From positions 1 through 64,000 of the forward strand of contig JAAYIH010000046.1 of assembly GCA_012523545.1 (NCBI GenBank): a DNA stretch of 64,000 nucleotides, read 5' to 3'. Both the position numbers and the translations under genes were made by a program. Source of the stretch: Bacillota bacterium (lineage in GTDB: Bacteria > Bacillota > Proteinivoracia > UBA4975). Position 1 is the stretch's first letter; every line of letters begins with the position of its first letter. Shown here piece after piece: positions 18,743 to 58,471 of the stretch. The notes beneath the pieces were generated by a model. That model was not told the DNA's origin. It made no database searches and saw nothing but the letters and a program-made list of their open reading frames with translations.

Positions 18743-18797
18743 TTAGCTAAGCTATTGGCTAAAACATTATTGATTTTAGCTAAAACATTGCTATAAT
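18743..18797 (+). promoter_or_regulatory. Promoter with repeated TTAGCTAA-type palindromes upstream of Phd-Uma2 gene
   Basis: TTAGCTAA 18743-18750, TTGGCTAA 18755-18762, TTTTAGCTAAAA 18774-18785; candidate -35 TTGATT 18770-18775, 16 nt, -10 TATAAT 18792-18797. Confidence 0.65.
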
Positions 18798-18838
18798 TAT
18801 ATTATCGTACTTAATAATAAAAATCGGAGGTGACTTCA

Positions 18839-19570
18839 GTGATTGTCACTACCACCGATGTGCAGAACAGCTTTGGCAAGTACCTGCAACTCTGCAGGCA
18901 TGAAGAAGTCATCATCACCAAGAACGGCAAGAAGGTGGCTAAACTCATTCCCTATACCGAGGACGGTACCCTGGGCCGCTGGCTGGTCACAGAAGGTTCG
19001 CCGCGCTACAGTCCCAAGGGCATCCGGGTAAGTTATGAAGAATTCCTGAAGATGACGGAAGAAAGCGAGAATCGTTACGAGTACATTGACGGCGAGATTT
19101 ACCTCCTGGCCTCCCCCCTGTATCCCCACCAGAAGGCTGTACGGGAAATATTCGGCGAGTTCATAAACTGGTTCAGAGATAAGGACTGCGAACCCCTGGC
19201 CGCCCCCTTCGACGTCGTCCTCCATCGGCTGGACGATGCCGAAAAGATCAACTCGGTCCAGCCGGACATCATTGTCATCTGCGACAAAGACAAGATCAAC
19301 GAGCAAGGCAAATATACCGGGACTCCCTCCCTGGTGGTGGAGGTTCTCTCGGAATCTACCCGCAGCCGTGATTTGGTGCAGAAGCTGGACCTGTACATGG
19401 AAAGCGGAATCAGGGAGTACTGGGCGGTCAACACAGAATCTAAAGAGATATACATTTACACCTTTACCGGCTACAAGCTGGCCGACATCTTCACCTTTAA
19501 GGGCCAGGAGCAAGCCCAATCGGTAATTTTTCCTGGGCTGAGCGTAAGCCTGCCGCAGGTCTTTGCCTGA
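18839..19570 (+). CDS. Phd/YefM-like antitoxin domain fused to Uma2-family (DUF820) PD-(D/E)XK nuclease
   Basis: N-term VIVTTTDVQNSFGKYLQLCRHEEVIITKNGKKVAKLIP (Phd-like); C-term YEYIDGEIYLLASP...QPDIIVICDKDK...PSLVVEVLSESTRSRDLVQKLDLYMESGIREYWAVN (Uma2 D...ExL...K); GGAGG RBS then GTG. Confidence 0.82.
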   Translation: MIVTTTDVQNSFGKYLQLCRHEEVIITKNGKKVAKLIPYTEDGTLGRWLVTEGSPRYSPKGIRVSYEEFLKMTEESENRYEYIDGEIYLLASPLYPHQKAVREIFGEFINWFRDKDCEPLAAPFDVVLHRLDDAEKINSVQPDIIVICDKDKINEQGKYTGTPSLVVEVLSESTRSRDLVQKLDLYMESGIREYWAVNTESKEIYIYTFTGYKLADIFTFKGQEQAQSVIFPGLSVSLPQVFA

Positions 19571-19640
19571 CGGCTGTGGGTGCCGAAATCGGCCTTCGGG
19601 GAATTCACCCTGGCGACAACTCAGCGCCGGAGAAAGCGAC

Positions 19641-19662
19641 AACCGTGTCATATGACAAGGTT
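19641..19662 (+). promoter_or_regulatory. Near-perfect 22-bp palindrome, probable TetR operator
   Basis: AACCGTGTCATATGACAAGGTT, one mismatched pair; overlaps the -35 region. Confidence 0.75.
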
Positions 19663-19689
19663 GTCACATTGTTTTCTCTGTGGTAATAT
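19661..19689 (+). promoter_or_regulatory. SigA-type promoter of tetR-ABC operon
   Basis: TTGTCA (19661-19666) - 17 nt - TAATAT (19684-19689). Confidence 0.75.
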
Positions 19690-19705
19690 TGAAGTGGTGA
19701 TTGTA

Positions 19706-20308
19706 ATGCCGACAGAAACCTTTTTCAACCTCAGTGAAGCCAAGCAAAAGCGGATATTCGAAGCTGCAGTTAAGGAATTTGCCGCCCGGCGCTACAGCGA
19801 GGCCTCCATCAACCAGATTGTCAAGGAAGCGCAGATTTCCCGGGGCAGTTTCTACCAGTATTTCAACGGCAAGGAAGACCTCTACCTCTACGTCCTGACC
19901 GAGATTGGCAAGGAGAAGATGGCCATTGCCCTTCCCCGGCAACTGCCTGAAGACGCCGACTTCTTCAGCGTCTACCTGAGCATGGTCAGGGACATTGTGG
20001 CCTGGACCCGGAAACGGCCGTTATACACCAGGATTGGGATGCTCATGGAACTGGATGACAGCGAATTCATCGCCAAGCTTACTTCCCGGTTCCCGGATAC
20101 CTGGGCCGGGCTCCGGGCCCTCCTGGAACGGGACAAGAAGCTGGGCCGCATCCGCCCCGATGTCAACAGCGATTTGGTCATCCAAATCCTGTACAACCAG
20201 AACCTCCACTTTCAGAAGACTCTCTTTCGCCAGGGCAATCTGGACGACATGTTGCCCCAGGTGGAAGAGTTAATCAAAGTCTTAAAGGAGGGAATTGCCC
20301 TTGTTTGA
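19706..20308 (+). CDS. TetR-family transcriptional regulator
   Basis: MPTETFFNLSEAKQKRIFEAAVKEFAARRYSEASINQIVKEAQISRGSFYQYFNGKEDLYLYVL. Confidence 0.9.
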   Translation: MPTETFFNLSEAKQKRIFEAAVKEFAARRYSEASINQIVKEAQISRGSFYQYFNGKEDLYLYVLTEIGKEKMAIALPRQLPEDADFFSVYLSMVRDIVAWTRKRPLYTRIGMLMELDDSEFIAKLTSRFPDTWAGLRALLERDKKLGRIRPDVNSDLVIQILYNQNLHFQKTLFRQGNLDDMLPQVEELIKVLKEGIALV

Positions 20309-21152
20309 GGTAAGGGGACTCAAGTACAAGTACCCCAATGCCCAGGATTATGCCGTCGACGGCATCGACTTTGAAATCCGGCAGGGAGAAATCTTTGGCT
20401 TCCTGGGCCCCAGCGGGGCCGGCAAAAGCACCACTCAAAAAATCCTGATCAAGCTGCTCAAGGACTACCAGGGCGAGATACTCTACCGCGGTAAGAAGCT
20501 CACCGAGTACAGCGATGAATTTTATCAGGACATCGGCGTATCCTTTGAAATGCCCATTTCCTTCTCCAAGCTGACGGCCATGGAAAACCTGGAATTTTTC
20601 CGGCGCCTGTACAAAGAGACGGTGGATGTGGAGCCCCTGCTCAGGCGGGTGGGCCTGTGGGAGGACAGGCACAAAAAGACCGGCGAATACTCCAAGGGCA
20701 TGAAAATCCGCCTCAACTTCGTCCGCGCCCTGCTCAACAATCCCAAGATGCTCTTCCTGGACGAACCCACCAACGGCATCGATCCCGTCAACGGCAAAAT
20801 CATGAAGGACATGATCCGGGAGTTCCGCGCCCAGGGCGGCACCGTATTCCTCACCAGCCACATCATGAGCGATGTGGATGAGCTCTGCGACCGGGTTGCT
20901 TTCATCGTCAACGGCAAGATTCGGGAAGTGGATTCGCCCCGCAATCTCAAGCTCAAGTACGGCAAGCGCGTTGTGCGGGTGGAGTACCGGGAAAACGGCA
21001 ACGTGGTAAGCAAAGAGTTCACTATGGAGGAAATCAAGACCCCGGCATTCTTCGAGCTCCTCAAAACCAAGGACATCGAGACCCTGCACAGCGGCGAGAC
21101 CACCCTGGAGGACATCTTTATCAAGGTGACGGGAGTGGCCCTCCATGGCTAA
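20295..21152 (+). CDS. ABC-2 type transporter ATP-binding protein
   Basis: [20 protein letters not shown]...YSKGMKIRLNFVRALLNNPKMLFLDEPTNGIDP. Confidence 0.93.
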   Translation: MPLFEVRGLKYKYPNAQDYAVDGIDFEIRQGEIFGFLGPSGAGKSTTQKILIKLLKDYQGEILYRGKKLTEYSDEFYQDIGVSFEMPISFSKLTAMENLEFFRRLYKETVDVEPLLRRVGLWEDRHKKTGEYSKGMKIRLNFVRALLNNPKMLFLDEPTNGIDPVNGKIMKDMIREFRAQGGTVFLTSHIMSDVDELCDRVAFIVNGKIREVDSPRNLKLKYGKRVVRVEYRENGNVVSKEFTMEEIKTPAFFELLKTKDIETLHSGETTLEDIFIKVTGVALHG

Positions 21153-21870
21153 GCTGGGCATATTGGTCCAGGGCGAATTGGACCGGCTGAGAAAATACAA
21201 TCTCTTCACCGCGACCACTGTAGTGCTGTTGCTGTGGGTGGGCATGACCTGGTTGCTGGAAGCAGGGGAAGTCACCGCCTTTGTGCCCCTTATCCTCCTT
21301 ATGGACAGCACCATGATGAGCAGCCTGTTGGTGGGAGCCACCCTCTTTTATGAGAAGAAGGAACATGCCATAAACTCCATCCTGGTCACCCCGGTGCCGG
21401 AAACCGAGTACATTGCGGCCAAAATAATTGTCAGCGTCTTCAATTCCCTGCTGACCTTCCTGGCCCTCGCGGCCACGGCGTACTTCCTCAAAGGCGTAAC
21501 CTTTAACTTTGCCCTGGTTGCTGCAGCAGTCGTGGTCATTACGGCATTTCACGCCCTGCTGGGCATTTGGTTTGCCTTCTTTTCCAAAAACTTTTCCTCG
21601 CTGCTGGTTAACTTAATGCTCTACATTATATTCCTGATGCTGCCACCCGTCCTGGCCGACCTGGGGATCATCGGGGAGAAAATTGCCCGCTTCTTCATCA
21701 TCCTTCCTCCCGATGCCGCCGGCACCATGCTTCAGGCCGGTTTCGCAACTGTCCCCCTTGGCCGTCTCATCTTTGGCTTCGTCTACCTGCTGGCCCTCTC
21801 GGCAGCCCTTTACAAGTACATCGTTTTGCCCGGCTTCAACCAGTATGCCATGCGGGAAACGGGGGTATAG
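21145..21870 (+). CDS. ABC-2 type permease
   Basis: 241 aa, multi-TM; overlaps ATPase stop. Confidence 0.8.
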   Translation: MAKLGILVQGELDRLRKYNLFTATTVVLLLWVGMTWLLEAGEVTAFVPLILLMDSTMMSSLLVGATLFYEKKEHAINSILVTPVPETEYIAAKIIVSVFNSLLTFLALAATAYFLKGVTFNFALVAAAVVVITAFHALLGIWFAFFSKNFSSLLVNLMLYIIFLMLPPVLADLGIIGEKIARFFIILPPDAAGTMLQAGFATVPLGRLIFGFVYLLALSAALYKYIVLPGFNQYAMRETGV

Positions 21871-21872
21871 CC

Positions 21873-22598
21873 ATGCTCGGTGCCTTGCTGAAACATGAAA
21901 CCAAAAACCTGCTCCGGGAGCGCATGACACTGCTCATGTTGCTCTATCCCTTGCTTATCGGCATCGTCGGCAGAATTCTGCTGGACCGGGGAGTCATAAG
22001 CGGAGAGGGCGTGGGCATCGCCGCCATGCTCTTCACCCTTTTTGGCGGCTTTGCCTACGGGGCCATGGCCGGGTTCTCCCTGCTGGATGACCGGGACGAC
22101 CAGGTCCTGGACTCCATCCGGATTTCCCCCGTCTCGGTGCACTGGCATATCTGGTTTAAAATTAGTTTTGCCTTTGTCCTGGCCGTCGCTGCCGGCTTCT
22201 TCATTATCCGGTTCAGCGGCGCCCTGGACATCGGCAGCGGAGACACACTGCTCCTGGCCGTTCTCTCCGCCCTCCAGGTGCCCGTCGTAGCCTTCTTCAT
22301 CAATGCCTTTGCCAAAAACAAGGTGGAAGGCTTTGTAACCATGAAGGGCCTGGGTTTTATCCTCATCTTTCCGGTGGCCGCCTACTTCTTTCTGGACTGG
22401 CAGGAATGGCTCTTTGCCCTTGCTCCTGTCCACTGGTCAGCCAAGGCAACGCAGTACCTCTACCTGCGGCCAGCCATCGAAGCCGGCTTGGTAACGATGA
22501 ACCTCAATTTCTACCAGTACCTGGGCATAGGTTTCGCCTACAACCTGCTCCTGGCGGCAGGCGCCTTCGTCCTGTTCAAGAAGAAAAATCAATTGTAG
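21873..22598 (+). CDS. ABC-2 type permease (second subunit)
   Basis: 241 aa, multi-TM; MLGALLKHETKNLLRERMTLLMLLYPLLIGIVGRI. Confidence 0.8.
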   Translation: MLGALLKHETKNLLRERMTLLMLLYPLLIGIVGRILLDRGVISGEGVGIAAMLFTLFGGFAYGAMAGFSLLDDRDDQVLDSIRISPVSVHWHIWFKISFAFVLAVAAGFFIIRFSGALDIGSGDTLLLAVLSALQVPVVAFFINAFAKNKVEGFVTMKGLGFILIFPVAAYFFLDWQEWLFALAPVHWSAKATQYLYLRPAIEAGLVTMNLNFYQYLGIGFAYNLLLAAGAFVLFKKKNQL

Positions 22599-22608
22599 TA
22601 ATGCCGCC

Positions 22609-22655
22609 GGAAGAAATGCAGAGGGGCCACAAGCGGGCCCCTCTGCATTTCTTCC
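22609..22655. repeat. 20-bp perfect inverted repeat downstream of permease (terminator-like but no T-tract)
   Basis: ggaagaaatgcagaggggcc-acaagcg-ggcccctctgcatttcttcc. Confidence 0.7.
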
Positions 22656-22792
22656 AGCAAGGCAACCAGCTTTTCCGCCGGCTCCAGGCCGGTATAAAAA
22701 ACATGGAATACATGCTCGCCCTTCACGAGAATGAGCTCGTTACGGTTTCCATGTCAACACCCAATCCCGCTGCCTGCACCGGCCGGCACTTG

Positions 22793-22829
22793 ACTGAAGT
22801 TGATTTCAGTTGTCGCCCCGTGGTAAAAT
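22793..22829 (+). promoter_or_regulatory. Candidate promoter/operator for HTH-Uma2 gene
   Basis: ACTGAA-N6-TTCAGT inverted repeat (22793-22810); TTGATT - 18 nt - TAAAAT (22824-22829). Confidence 0.5.
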
Positions 22830-22847
22830 TTTGCCGAGGTGAGTACG

Positions 22848-23597
22848 ATGGGGAAAACGGACCTCATTACAGCTCAGGCTTTGGCCAAAGCCCTGAACCT
22901 CTCAGTGGAGACAATCTGGCGCTATACCCGGAACAAGAAAATACCCTACGTCACTCTGGGCGAAAGGCAGTATCGCTACAATCTCCAGGAGGTTTTGGCC
23001 GCCCTCACCGGCGCCCGGGTGCGGGAAAAGGCTCCGGCGTACATTTCCGGAGCCAGTAAATTCACTTACCAGGATTTCCTGGAACTGCCCGAGGAACCGG
23101 GTTACCGGTATGAACTCCTGGCCGGAGAGCTGGTCAAAGAGCCCAACCCGGTCGTTTTGCATCAGAGGGTTGCCCGGGAGCTGGCGTATCTCCTCCTGCT
23201 CTACTTCCGCCAGGCAGACCCTTTGGGGGAAATCTTTTTCGCGCCGCTGGATGTAACCCTGGACGAATATACCGCCGTCCAGCCGGATATCCTGTTTGTC
23301 TCCGGCCAGCAAAAGGATATTGTCAAGGACGTCCGCATCGACGGCGCTCCCTTTCTGGTGGCGGAAATTCTTTCCGAAACCAGCCGCAGCAAGGACCGGC
23401 TCCGCAAGCGCCGCATCTACCAGGAGGCGGGGATTCAACACTATTGGCTGGTGGACCCTTGTGAAAGGACCATTGAATGCCTGGCCCTCCGAGACGGGGA
23501 GTATATCCTGGCCGCTTCCGGCCTGGATGCTGAGACTGTCACCCATCCGGATTTTCCCGGGCTCAGCATTCCCCTGCCGCAACTGTGGCAAGACTAA
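22848..23597 (+). CDS. Excisionase/MerR-like HTH domain fused to Uma2-family PD-(D/E)XK nuclease
   Basis: N-term LITAQALAKALNLSVETIWRYTRNKKIPYVTLGERQYRYNLQEVLAAL (HTH); C-term YRYELLAGELVKEPNP...VQPDILFVSGQQKD...PFLVAEILSETSRSKDRLRKRRIYQEAGIQHYWLVDP. Confidence 0.82.
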   Translation: MGKTDLITAQALAKALNLSVETIWRYTRNKKIPYVTLGERQYRYNLQEVLAALTGARVREKAPAYISGASKFTYQDFLELPEEPGYRYELLAGELVKEPNPVVLHQRVARELAYLLLLYFRQADPLGEIFFAPLDVTLDEYTAVQPDILFVSGQQKDIVKDVRIDGAPFLVAEILSETSRSKDRLRKRRIYQEAGIQHYWLVDPCERTIECLALRDGEYILAASGLDAETVTHPDFPGLSIPLPQLWQD

Positions 23598-32744: not shown

Positions 32745-33167
32745 TCAACGGAGACAGCCGGAATCGTCCCCGGTGTTGCAATATTCAACAGCCAGCTGGA
32801 TGTATTCATTAAGGGTAAGGTCCCGGACGCCGGCCACCCTGACATTGCACCGGTTTACGGGAATGAGGATCTTTTGGGCGGGACTGCGGGCGATGGCCAG
32901 GGCCATGGCCGGCGTGATTTCCCCCAGAAAAGCATCGGCCAGGATAATGCCCAGGGGACCGATGATGATATCTGCATCGCGGCAGTTTACGATGACGGGG
33001 TTTTCGCCGGTGGCCCCCTGGTCGGCGCCGGCTTTGAGCATGCCCGCCGTAGCTATGCTGTTGGTGCCGATGGCCAGCACCTTCTGTTCCGGCAAGCTCT
33101 GTTTCAGCTGTTTGACGATGCTGGCCCCAATCTTTCCGCCCTGTCCGTCTATTACCACCACTTTCAC
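32745..33167 (-). CDS. DUF3842 family protein
   Basis: MKVVVIDGQGGKIGASIVKQLKQSLPEQKVLAIGTNSIATAGMLKAGADQGATGENPVIVN. Confidence 0.7.
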   Translation of the reverse strand: MKVVVIDGQGGKIGASIVKQLKQSLPEQKVLAIGTNSIATAGMLKAGADQGATGENPVIVNCRDADIIIGPLGIILADAFLGEITPAMALAIARSPAQKILIPVNRCNVRVAGVRDLTLNEYIQLAVEYCNTGDDSGCLR

Positions 33168-58086: not shown

Positions 58087-58174
58087 GTTTAACCCCTTTC
58101 CCACATATAGTATCCTGTGCATTATAAAAAAACTGCATAATGCCAATAAGCATATGCAGTACACAAGCCATATG

Positions 58175-58266
58175 TCCCTGCGTTGGCATTACCCACATCA
58201 GGTTATAAGGGTCTAAGCAATACAGCTTACTCTCAGCCTGCTTTGCGCAAGCTCCCCTTTGTATTG
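58175..58266 (-). ncRNA. TPP riboswitch
   Basis: Minus: AAAGGGGAGCTTGCGCAAAGCAGGCTGAGAGTAAG...GACCCTTATAACCTGATGTGGGTAATGCCAACGCAGGGA. Confidence 0.96.
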
Positions 58267-58471
58267 ATTTACTAAAATTATAACTACAAACAGAGGGAAA
58301 ATCAACCCGCGCAACCCTTTTTCACGTAATACTCCGGTCACAAAAGGCCGCTAATTTTACATTTCCATAACATTGGCCGACAGAGACAGGATTTATTAAC
58401 TTGGTAGAGAAATAAAATATAACCCGAAACACGCCTTATTCCTCCCCTCTGCCGGGCCGTTCCGGCTTTTT

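Follow-up and report, generated by a model that had tools for sequence, protein, structure and literature searches.

Uma2-family predicted nucleases with N-terminal Phd or helix-turn-helix heads and class-specific predicted operators at their own promoters

Uma2 (COG4636/DUF820, PF05685) is a large nuclease family without an established role, in which a PD-EXX-K arrangement with a migrated lysine was described by Feder and Bujnicki in 2005 (PMC551604). Uma2 genes proliferate in genomes and make up more than 2% of the genes of one cyanobacterium, and catalysis has been lost in many PD-(D/E)XK folds (PMC551604). Makarova and colleagues suggested Uma2 as a possible solo toxin (PMC2701414). Here, we analyzed a stretch of 64,000 nucleotides from a Bacillota bacterium (assembly GCA_012523545.1, contig JAAYIH010000046.1, positions 1 to 64,000; the window), in which two genes, P0001 and P0002, encode a Uma2 domain behind an N-terminal DNA-binding head, of the Phd/YefM type in P0001 and of the helix-turn-helix (HTH) type in P0002. 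The evidence was computational throughout, and it makes it probable that each gene is a one-protein module, i.e., a Uma2 nuclease whose head represses its own promoter.

P0001 and P0002 share with the solved Uma2 chains (1wdj, 3ot2, 6okh and 9y1l) the fold, the PD-EXX-K site with its migrated lysine, the conserved histidine and the high copy number per genome. The solved chains (187–190 residues) have no heads, whereas each of the two proteins begins with a DNA-binding head, followed by a linker motif common to both, and its gene has a cognate predicted operator. A term search of the paper by Feder and Bujnicki (PMC551604) returned no mention of a fusion or of a helix-turn-helix. The operators from which YefM and Axe repress are TGTACA palindromes, paired at 12-bp spacing (PMC7730913). 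P0001, unlike P0002, resembles YefM, Phd and Axe in its Phd-fold head and in the palindromes over its own promoter; the first two sites in the window keep the 12-bp spacing, and a second class of Phd heads (class B, below) goes with a GTAC core as in TGTACA. The differences are that no toxin gene is present, that the neutralizing C-terminus is replaced by a nuclease and that class A, to which P0001 belongs, uses TAGCTA. A type II toxin–antitoxin operon of two genes with a separate toxin was not found, as there was no conserved partner among the neighbors.

BldC binds direct repeats head-to-tail (PMC5859096). The head of P0002 has the winged HTH fold of BldC, Xis and RdfS, and the promoter carries a run of direct repeats, variable in number between genes and spaced by about one helical turn; however, the repeats are RSTTGA with a 10-bp period in place of the 9-bp AATTxxxxC of BldC, a nuclease is fused, and self-regulation is predicted in place of a developmental role. 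I-TevI, in which a nuclease and a DNA-binding domain are joined by a flexible linker, represses its own promoter via the DNA-binding domain; its cleavage efficiency at that promoter is ~100-fold lower than at the homing site (PMC2988022). The headed Uma2 proteins have the same layout, with repression predicted, but I-TevI is a GIY-YIG nuclease residing in an intron, and signs of homing, for which no systematic search was made, were not noticed for headed Uma2. Finally, both Uma2 domains match the PADLOC models of PDC-S03, a candidate single-gene phage-defense family (E = 3.5e-55 and 8e-32); these models of 184–207 positions match from residue 65 or 72 onward, i.e., without the heads, and the family is a candidate only. 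In the literature searched, we found no experimental test of the solo-toxin idea or of the PDC-S03 phage-defense idea.

An initial annotation of the window had described two same-strand Uma2 genes with retained catalytic residues, one with a Phd/YefM-like and the other with an excisionase-like head, and this description held in every part. The Uma2 domain (PF05685) covers residues 70–240 of P0001 (E = 6e-30, 104.5 bits) and residues 78–246 of P0002 (E = 2e-37, 128.8 bits), against a cutoff of 27 bits. The P0001 head matched PhdYeFM_antitox (PF02604) at residues 5–42 (E = 4e-7), barely over the cutoff and across 40 of the 74 Pfam positions, with the neutralizing C-terminus of Phd absent. The P0002 head matched HTH_17 (PF12728) at residues 10–57 (E = 5e-8), and its match to the "excise" model stayed under the cutoff. 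The GTG at 18839 and the ATG at 22848 were better starts than the listed ones (open reading frames (ORFs) 18830–19570 and 22839–23597); P0001 has a Shine–Dalgarno sequence, GGAGG, at 18826–18830. As a side observation, the P0002 head (window 22848–23000) also matched PADLOC mad1, a component of the MADS defense system (E = 7e-6), and the mad3 model was matched by 5 of 91 neighbors of headed Uma2 genes, which is possibly a generic match.

The AlphaFold models (mean confidence, pLDDT, 85.7 for P0001 and 86.1 for P0002) contained the PD-(D/E)XK core and a DNA-binding head in both proteins. In Foldseek, both matched the solved structures 9y1l, 6okh, 1wdj and 3ot2 (template modeling score by target 0.77–0.93). 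The P0001 head matched VapB46 and a Phd antitoxin protein; the best non-Uma2 match of the P0002 head was BldC on direct-repeat DNA (6ama, 6amk), and phage Xis and 4j2n of the BldC/Xis/RdfS family were matched as well. The active site has the Uma2 form, PD-ExL-K plus H, in both proteins, and when 205 Uma2 proteins were aligned, the catalytic H, PD, ExL and K were near-invariant in the ~195 headed ones across classes A, B and HTH. We infer that the Uma2 domains of headed proteins are nucleases. Between orthologues in which synonymous divergence (dS) was not saturated, the ratio of nonsynonymous to synonymous substitution (dN/dS) was ~0.06–0.25 in head and nuclease alike; by this measure, headed Uma2 is under purifying selection, and neither domain is a relic.

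Three head classes and their motifs were spotted by eye in the upstream regions of ~50 genes; the motifs were then fixed and scored in 142 genes of previously unused genomes. Class-A Phd heads (VNSTDLQNAFGKYL, TTDLQNSFGKYL) go with TAGCTA palindromes, class-B Phd heads (ITATELKQNLGKYL) with CGTACG-like palindromes (CGTAC/GTACG) and HTH heads with RSTTG direct repeats of exactly 10-bp period. In the held-out genes, TAGCTA was present upstream of 50 of the 52 class-A genes and 1 of the 90 others (0/29 class B, 1/61 HTH; Fisher p = 9e-35). CGTAC/GTACG was found in 24/29 class-B genes against 2/113 others (0/52 class A, 2/61 HTH; p = 4e-20), and the RSTTG repeats in 33/61 HTH genes against 1/81 (0/52 class A, 1/29 class B; p = 2e-14). 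When each genus contributed one gene per class, the association was still significant (p = 2e-21, 5e-13 and 4e-9 for A, B and HTH, respectively), and composition shuffles gave 4.6%, 14% and 0.7% in the same order. The strict class-B motif missed sites spelled CGCAC/GTGCG; its figure was kept because the motif had been fixed in advance.

The sites also differed in arrangement. Pairs of RSTTG boxes peaked at lags of exactly 10, 20 and 30 bp in the HTH class (64, 35 and 11 pairs), and no such peak occurred in class A or B. Class-A sites stood mostly in pairs or triplets, 9, 17–18, 22–23 or 30 bp apart. For class-B sites, the usual distances were 22 and 50 bp, and overlap with the Shine–Dalgarno sequence was frequent. 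It was observed that one class-B operator copy, TCGTACGAGGTG, regularly has this overlap; binding there would also cover the ribosome-binding region. In motif-bearing genes, the sites overlapped the best predicted promoter in 61/70 (A), 33/36 (B) and 45/45 (HTH) cases. The genes tested remain related within each class; inheritance alone is disfavored because protein identities are 40–55%, dS is high already within the family, and spacing and flanks vary. On this upstream-sequence evidence, each head class has its own predicted operator at its own gene's promoter, which favors the self-regulated option among those that the initial annotation had offered.

The sites in the window are listed in Table 1; at P0002, the −35 box TTGATT falls inside the middle repeat. 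Within the 64-kb window, the only copies of TAGCTA are those of the two operator sites and one at 33050, and TTG-N7-TTG-N7-TTG occurs on the plus strand at the P0002 repeat site only. In the whole genome, TAGCTA-N6-30-TAGCTA was found in two places, the promoters of the two class-A genes (contigs C34, which holds the window, and C11), and the best two matches to the repeat pattern (0–1 mismatches) were the promoters of two HTH-Uma2 genes. Across 14 further genomes, 13 of the 19 distinct paired TTAGCTAA sites lay directly upstream of class-A genes, and the other 6 were at background level; a reversed control pattern gave 8 forward matches in total. Beyond their own promoters, no wider regulon of the heads rose above background in the genome itself or in the 14 others. 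As the sites are nearly confined to the genes' own promoters, the heads look like strict self-regulators rather than wider-regulon regulators or guides to multiple targets, and the idea of sequence-directed DNA processing elsewhere in the genome, also raised in the initial annotation, found no support.

Table 1. Positions of the headed Uma2 genes, their predicted control elements and the intervening exporter genes in the window
Feature	Position	Strand	Description
P0001, Phd-Uma2 gene	18839..19570	+	Class-A head; 243 aa from GTG 18839; domain matches, model
P0001 layout			Phd/YefM-type head (~residues 1–40), linker, Uma2 PD-ExL-K domain
TAGCTA palindrome 1	18744..18749	.	Predicted class-A operator, upstream of −35 box
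Imperfect palindrome TGGCTA	18756..18761	.	Centre lies 12 bp from that of palindrome 1, as in YefM/Axe
Perfect palindrome TTTTAGCTAAAA	18774..18785	.	Overlaps −35 box and promoter spacer
Predicted Phd-Uma2 promoter	18770..18797	+	TTGATT(18770)-N16-TATAAT(18792)
P0001 linker	18959..19033	+	Low model confidence; VTEGSPRY (VxExSxxY) ahead of Uma2
P0002, HTH-Uma2 gene	22848..23597	+	249 aa from ATG 22848; domain matches, model
P0002 layout			BldC/excisionase-type winged HTH head, linker, Uma2 PD-ExL-K domain
Three direct repeats ACTTGACTGA / AGTTGATTTC / AGTTGTCGCC	22788..22817	+	Predicted HTH-head operator, exactly 10-bp period
Predicted HTH-Uma2 promoter	22800..22829	+	TTGATT(22800)-N18-TAAAAT(22824)
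P0002 linker	23016..23066	+	Matching VREKAPAY
TetR, ATP-binding cassette (ABC) ATPase, two small ABC-2 permeases	19580..22598	+	Independent, incidental unit

From the domains, folds, conserved active sites, class-specific promoter-overlapping operators, their near-absence elsewhere and purifying selection, all of which were computed, we infer head binding, repression, nuclease activity and a biological role. The head would recognize the operators at its own promoter and repress the gene, and this repression would keep a potentially harmful nuclease scarce without a separate antitoxin or control gene. A Phd-type head may bind palindrome pairs as antitoxin dimers do (TAGCTA in class A, CGTACG in class B), and an HTH head may bind its run of 10-bp repeats, probably head-to-tail like BldC or Xis. 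Expression would rise when the repressor drops, e.g., on arrival in a new cell or through titration or degradation of the protein; the protein may act as a solo nuclease on foreign or damaged DNA or as a solo toxin. The head–operator code supplies defined predicted DNA ligands for members of an orphan family, which becomes open to direct binding, repression and cleavage tests, and would explain why several such nucleases can coexist in one genome with no partner gene. In addition, ~200 natural fusions become available from which the specificity of Phd and BldC-type heads can be read (TAGCTA versus CGTACG; 10-bp repeats). We found neither headed Uma2 proteins nor their operators described in the literature searched, which is a part of the whole; the Uma2, Phd and HTH domains themselves are already known.

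Several points weigh against a self-repressing nuclease. The strict repeat motif was present in only about half of the HTH genes; a looser TTG-N7-TTG was found in 47/61. Foldseek matches of the heads had E values of only ~0.04–0.14, though with a probability near 1.0, and a DNA-binding head could in principle activate instead. Clustering of 1213 neighboring ORFs and a Pfam scan of 91 flanking proteins found no conserved partner gene or antitoxin; the immediate neighbors fell into 147 Pfam families, none present in more than 4 of the 91 proteins. A PADLOC scan, which had no matched control set, gave no clear defense island around headed Uma2 genes, the neighbors being mixed and mostly housekeeping. 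Defense, toxin activity and repair all remain candidate roles, and the literature searched, as far as it was covered, yielded no experimental function for any Uma2 protein.

We considered whether the same data could be explained otherwise. A toxin and antitoxin fused in one chain, with the Phd head or the linker inhibiting the nuclease until it is proteolysed, would account for the Phd-class fold and for the paired-palindrome operator resembling that of YefM and Axe; Uma2 was called a likely solo toxin by Makarova in 2009 (PMC2701414), and an inhibitory or degradation segment would be expected to appear as a conserved motif within a linker modeled at low confidence, as is the case here. This explanation is unlikely, as the same linker motif follows HTH heads, which are not antitoxin-like, and the neutralizing C-terminus is missing from the partial Phd match. 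Loss of catalysis in many PD-(D/E)XK folds (PMC551604), together with strong and class-specific operators, could also indicate pure transcriptional repressors in which Uma2 is now a non-catalytic domain for dimerization or sensing, leaving a protein that controls its own expression or a small regulon. We regard this as distinctly improbable: the catalytic E, H, PD, E and K are near-invariant in all three classes, and there are no sites at other promoters beyond background; therefore, a pure repressor would regulate nothing but its own gene. More improbable still is a sequence-directed or homing-type nuclease, whose head would guide Uma2 to cut at or near operator copies, aiding spread or destroying rival copies. 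I-TevI is a precedent for one protein that cuts a homing site and represses at an operator (PMC2988022), Uma2 genes proliferate in genomes (PMC551604), and the flexible linker, as modeled, could let the nuclease reach out. However, cutting at sites nearly confined to the protein's own promoter would be suicidal, neither a homing site nor an intron nor an empty-site signature was noticed (without a systematic search for them), and orthologues keep the same place near xthA.

The DNA between the two genes bears on one more alternative, namely a single functional island made up of both Uma2 proteins and the exporter. The TetR gene, ATPase gene and two permease genes lie where the initial annotation had placed them, on the same strand as the Uma2 genes, and the permeases and both head types also occur together in a related genome (G001, locus L073). 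That is the only other locus of 190 with the permeases beside headed Uma2 genes, a weak perm2-like match in L095 apart. A recurrent pairing with TetR/ABC was thus not borne out by the neighborhood analysis, and the exporter was rejected as part of the Uma2 unit. The TetR gene has a palindrome of its own upstream, TGTCATATGACA (19646–19657), likely the operator of TetR itself and unconnected with the Uma2 heads. As in the window, xthA is close to the Phd-Uma2 gene in four further genomes from the family (G001, G002, G003 and G005), so that an old chromosomal location replaces the accessory island of the initial annotation. What does recur is the flanking arrangement: a Phd-Uma2 and an HTH-Uma2 gene within 8 kb were found as 11 gene pairs (10 loci in 6 genera, the window and G001 included) against 0.7 expected, compared with two Phd-Phd pairs and one HTH-HTH pair. 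A class-A fragment (G003:C98:33008) was counted among the HTH genes in this tally but belongs to none of the pairs. The pairing of the two head types is therefore real, but without this exporter in between outside the window and G001, and we give the one-island explanation almost no credence.

Full-length Phd-Uma2 genes were present in 55 and HTH-Uma2 genes in 65 of the ~399 genomes sampled in an architecture search limited to the phylum of the window; these matches were 37–83% identical across head and nuclease together. Forty-one relatives showed the same picture, with both architectures recurring full length; the fusions are therefore not due to chance. The genomes are mostly drafts, and Phd-HTH pairs may be undercounted for that reason. 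The genome of the window (a 1.73-Mb draft) has at least 7 Uma2 matches, comprising four Phd-headed genes (contigs C34, C11, C52 and C7), two intact HTH-headed genes and one split copy. The split HTH-Uma2 copy (G000:C47:50465-51179; L072:3876-4686) consists of two overlapping frames of 179 and 169 aa, which could reflect pseudogene formation by frameshift, a sequencing error or recoding. A few viral contigs and one phage record matched in the Uma2 domain only, and of 41 matching plasmid records one covers at least 80% of the query. In a deletion strain of Thermoanaerobacterium saccharolyticum, 20 sequence changes were reported in one Uma2 gene, Tsac_2318, those shown at 37–45% frequency (PMC6997586); they look like paralogue recombination or read mis-mapping.

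In the Uma2-domain tree, class B formed one group (99*), monophyly of class A was not rejected (p = 0.77), and the HTH proteins fell together in one clade with headless ones, i.e., head losses, inside (p = 0.08 when held strictly together). The tree had 11 head-label changes against a shuffled mean of 55; therefore, each head now stays with its nuclease, any swapping would be ancient, and frequent head swapping within the family was not supported. The linker gave a different view of the domain swapping on a common core suggested in the initial annotation. VxExAxxY-like residues precede Uma2 at the same distance in both head types, a permissive linker pattern was found in 174/193 headed proteins against 3/26 headless ones, and the stretch has low confidence in both AlphaFold models. 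By its sequence, the motif suggests that unrelated heads were joined to one common segment preceding Uma2. Thus, the common segment joining both head types stood, and recent exchange did not. Communication between head and nuclease through the linker would be a guess. It is conceivable, though on balance doubtful, that headed Uma2 proteins are one-protein modules of a nuclease plus a built-in antitoxin-like regulator, with exchangeable heads and a closed, cell-portable circuit, in which, through the VxExAxxY linker, binding to its own operator would silence the enzyme, and the free protein, or protein on foreign DNA, would be active.

Tandem Uma2 genes were found at five loci (L073:7176-8733; L090:5093-6659; L078, L178 and L189), where a headed gene is followed on the same strand by another Uma2 gene within ~25 bp. 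The second gene had no motif of its own in 4 of the 5 intact cases (L078, L090, L178 and L189), with L073 as the exception. Three of these four motif-less genes were headless, and the fourth (L090) was a class-A gene directly behind an HTH gene, which is among the few class-A misses of the operator test. A motif-less second gene is what an operon under the predicted operator of the first gene would look like. Elsewhere in the window, a T-box leader (572–788) and a thiamine pyrophosphate (TPP) riboswitch (58157–58268) were found, both on the minus strand.

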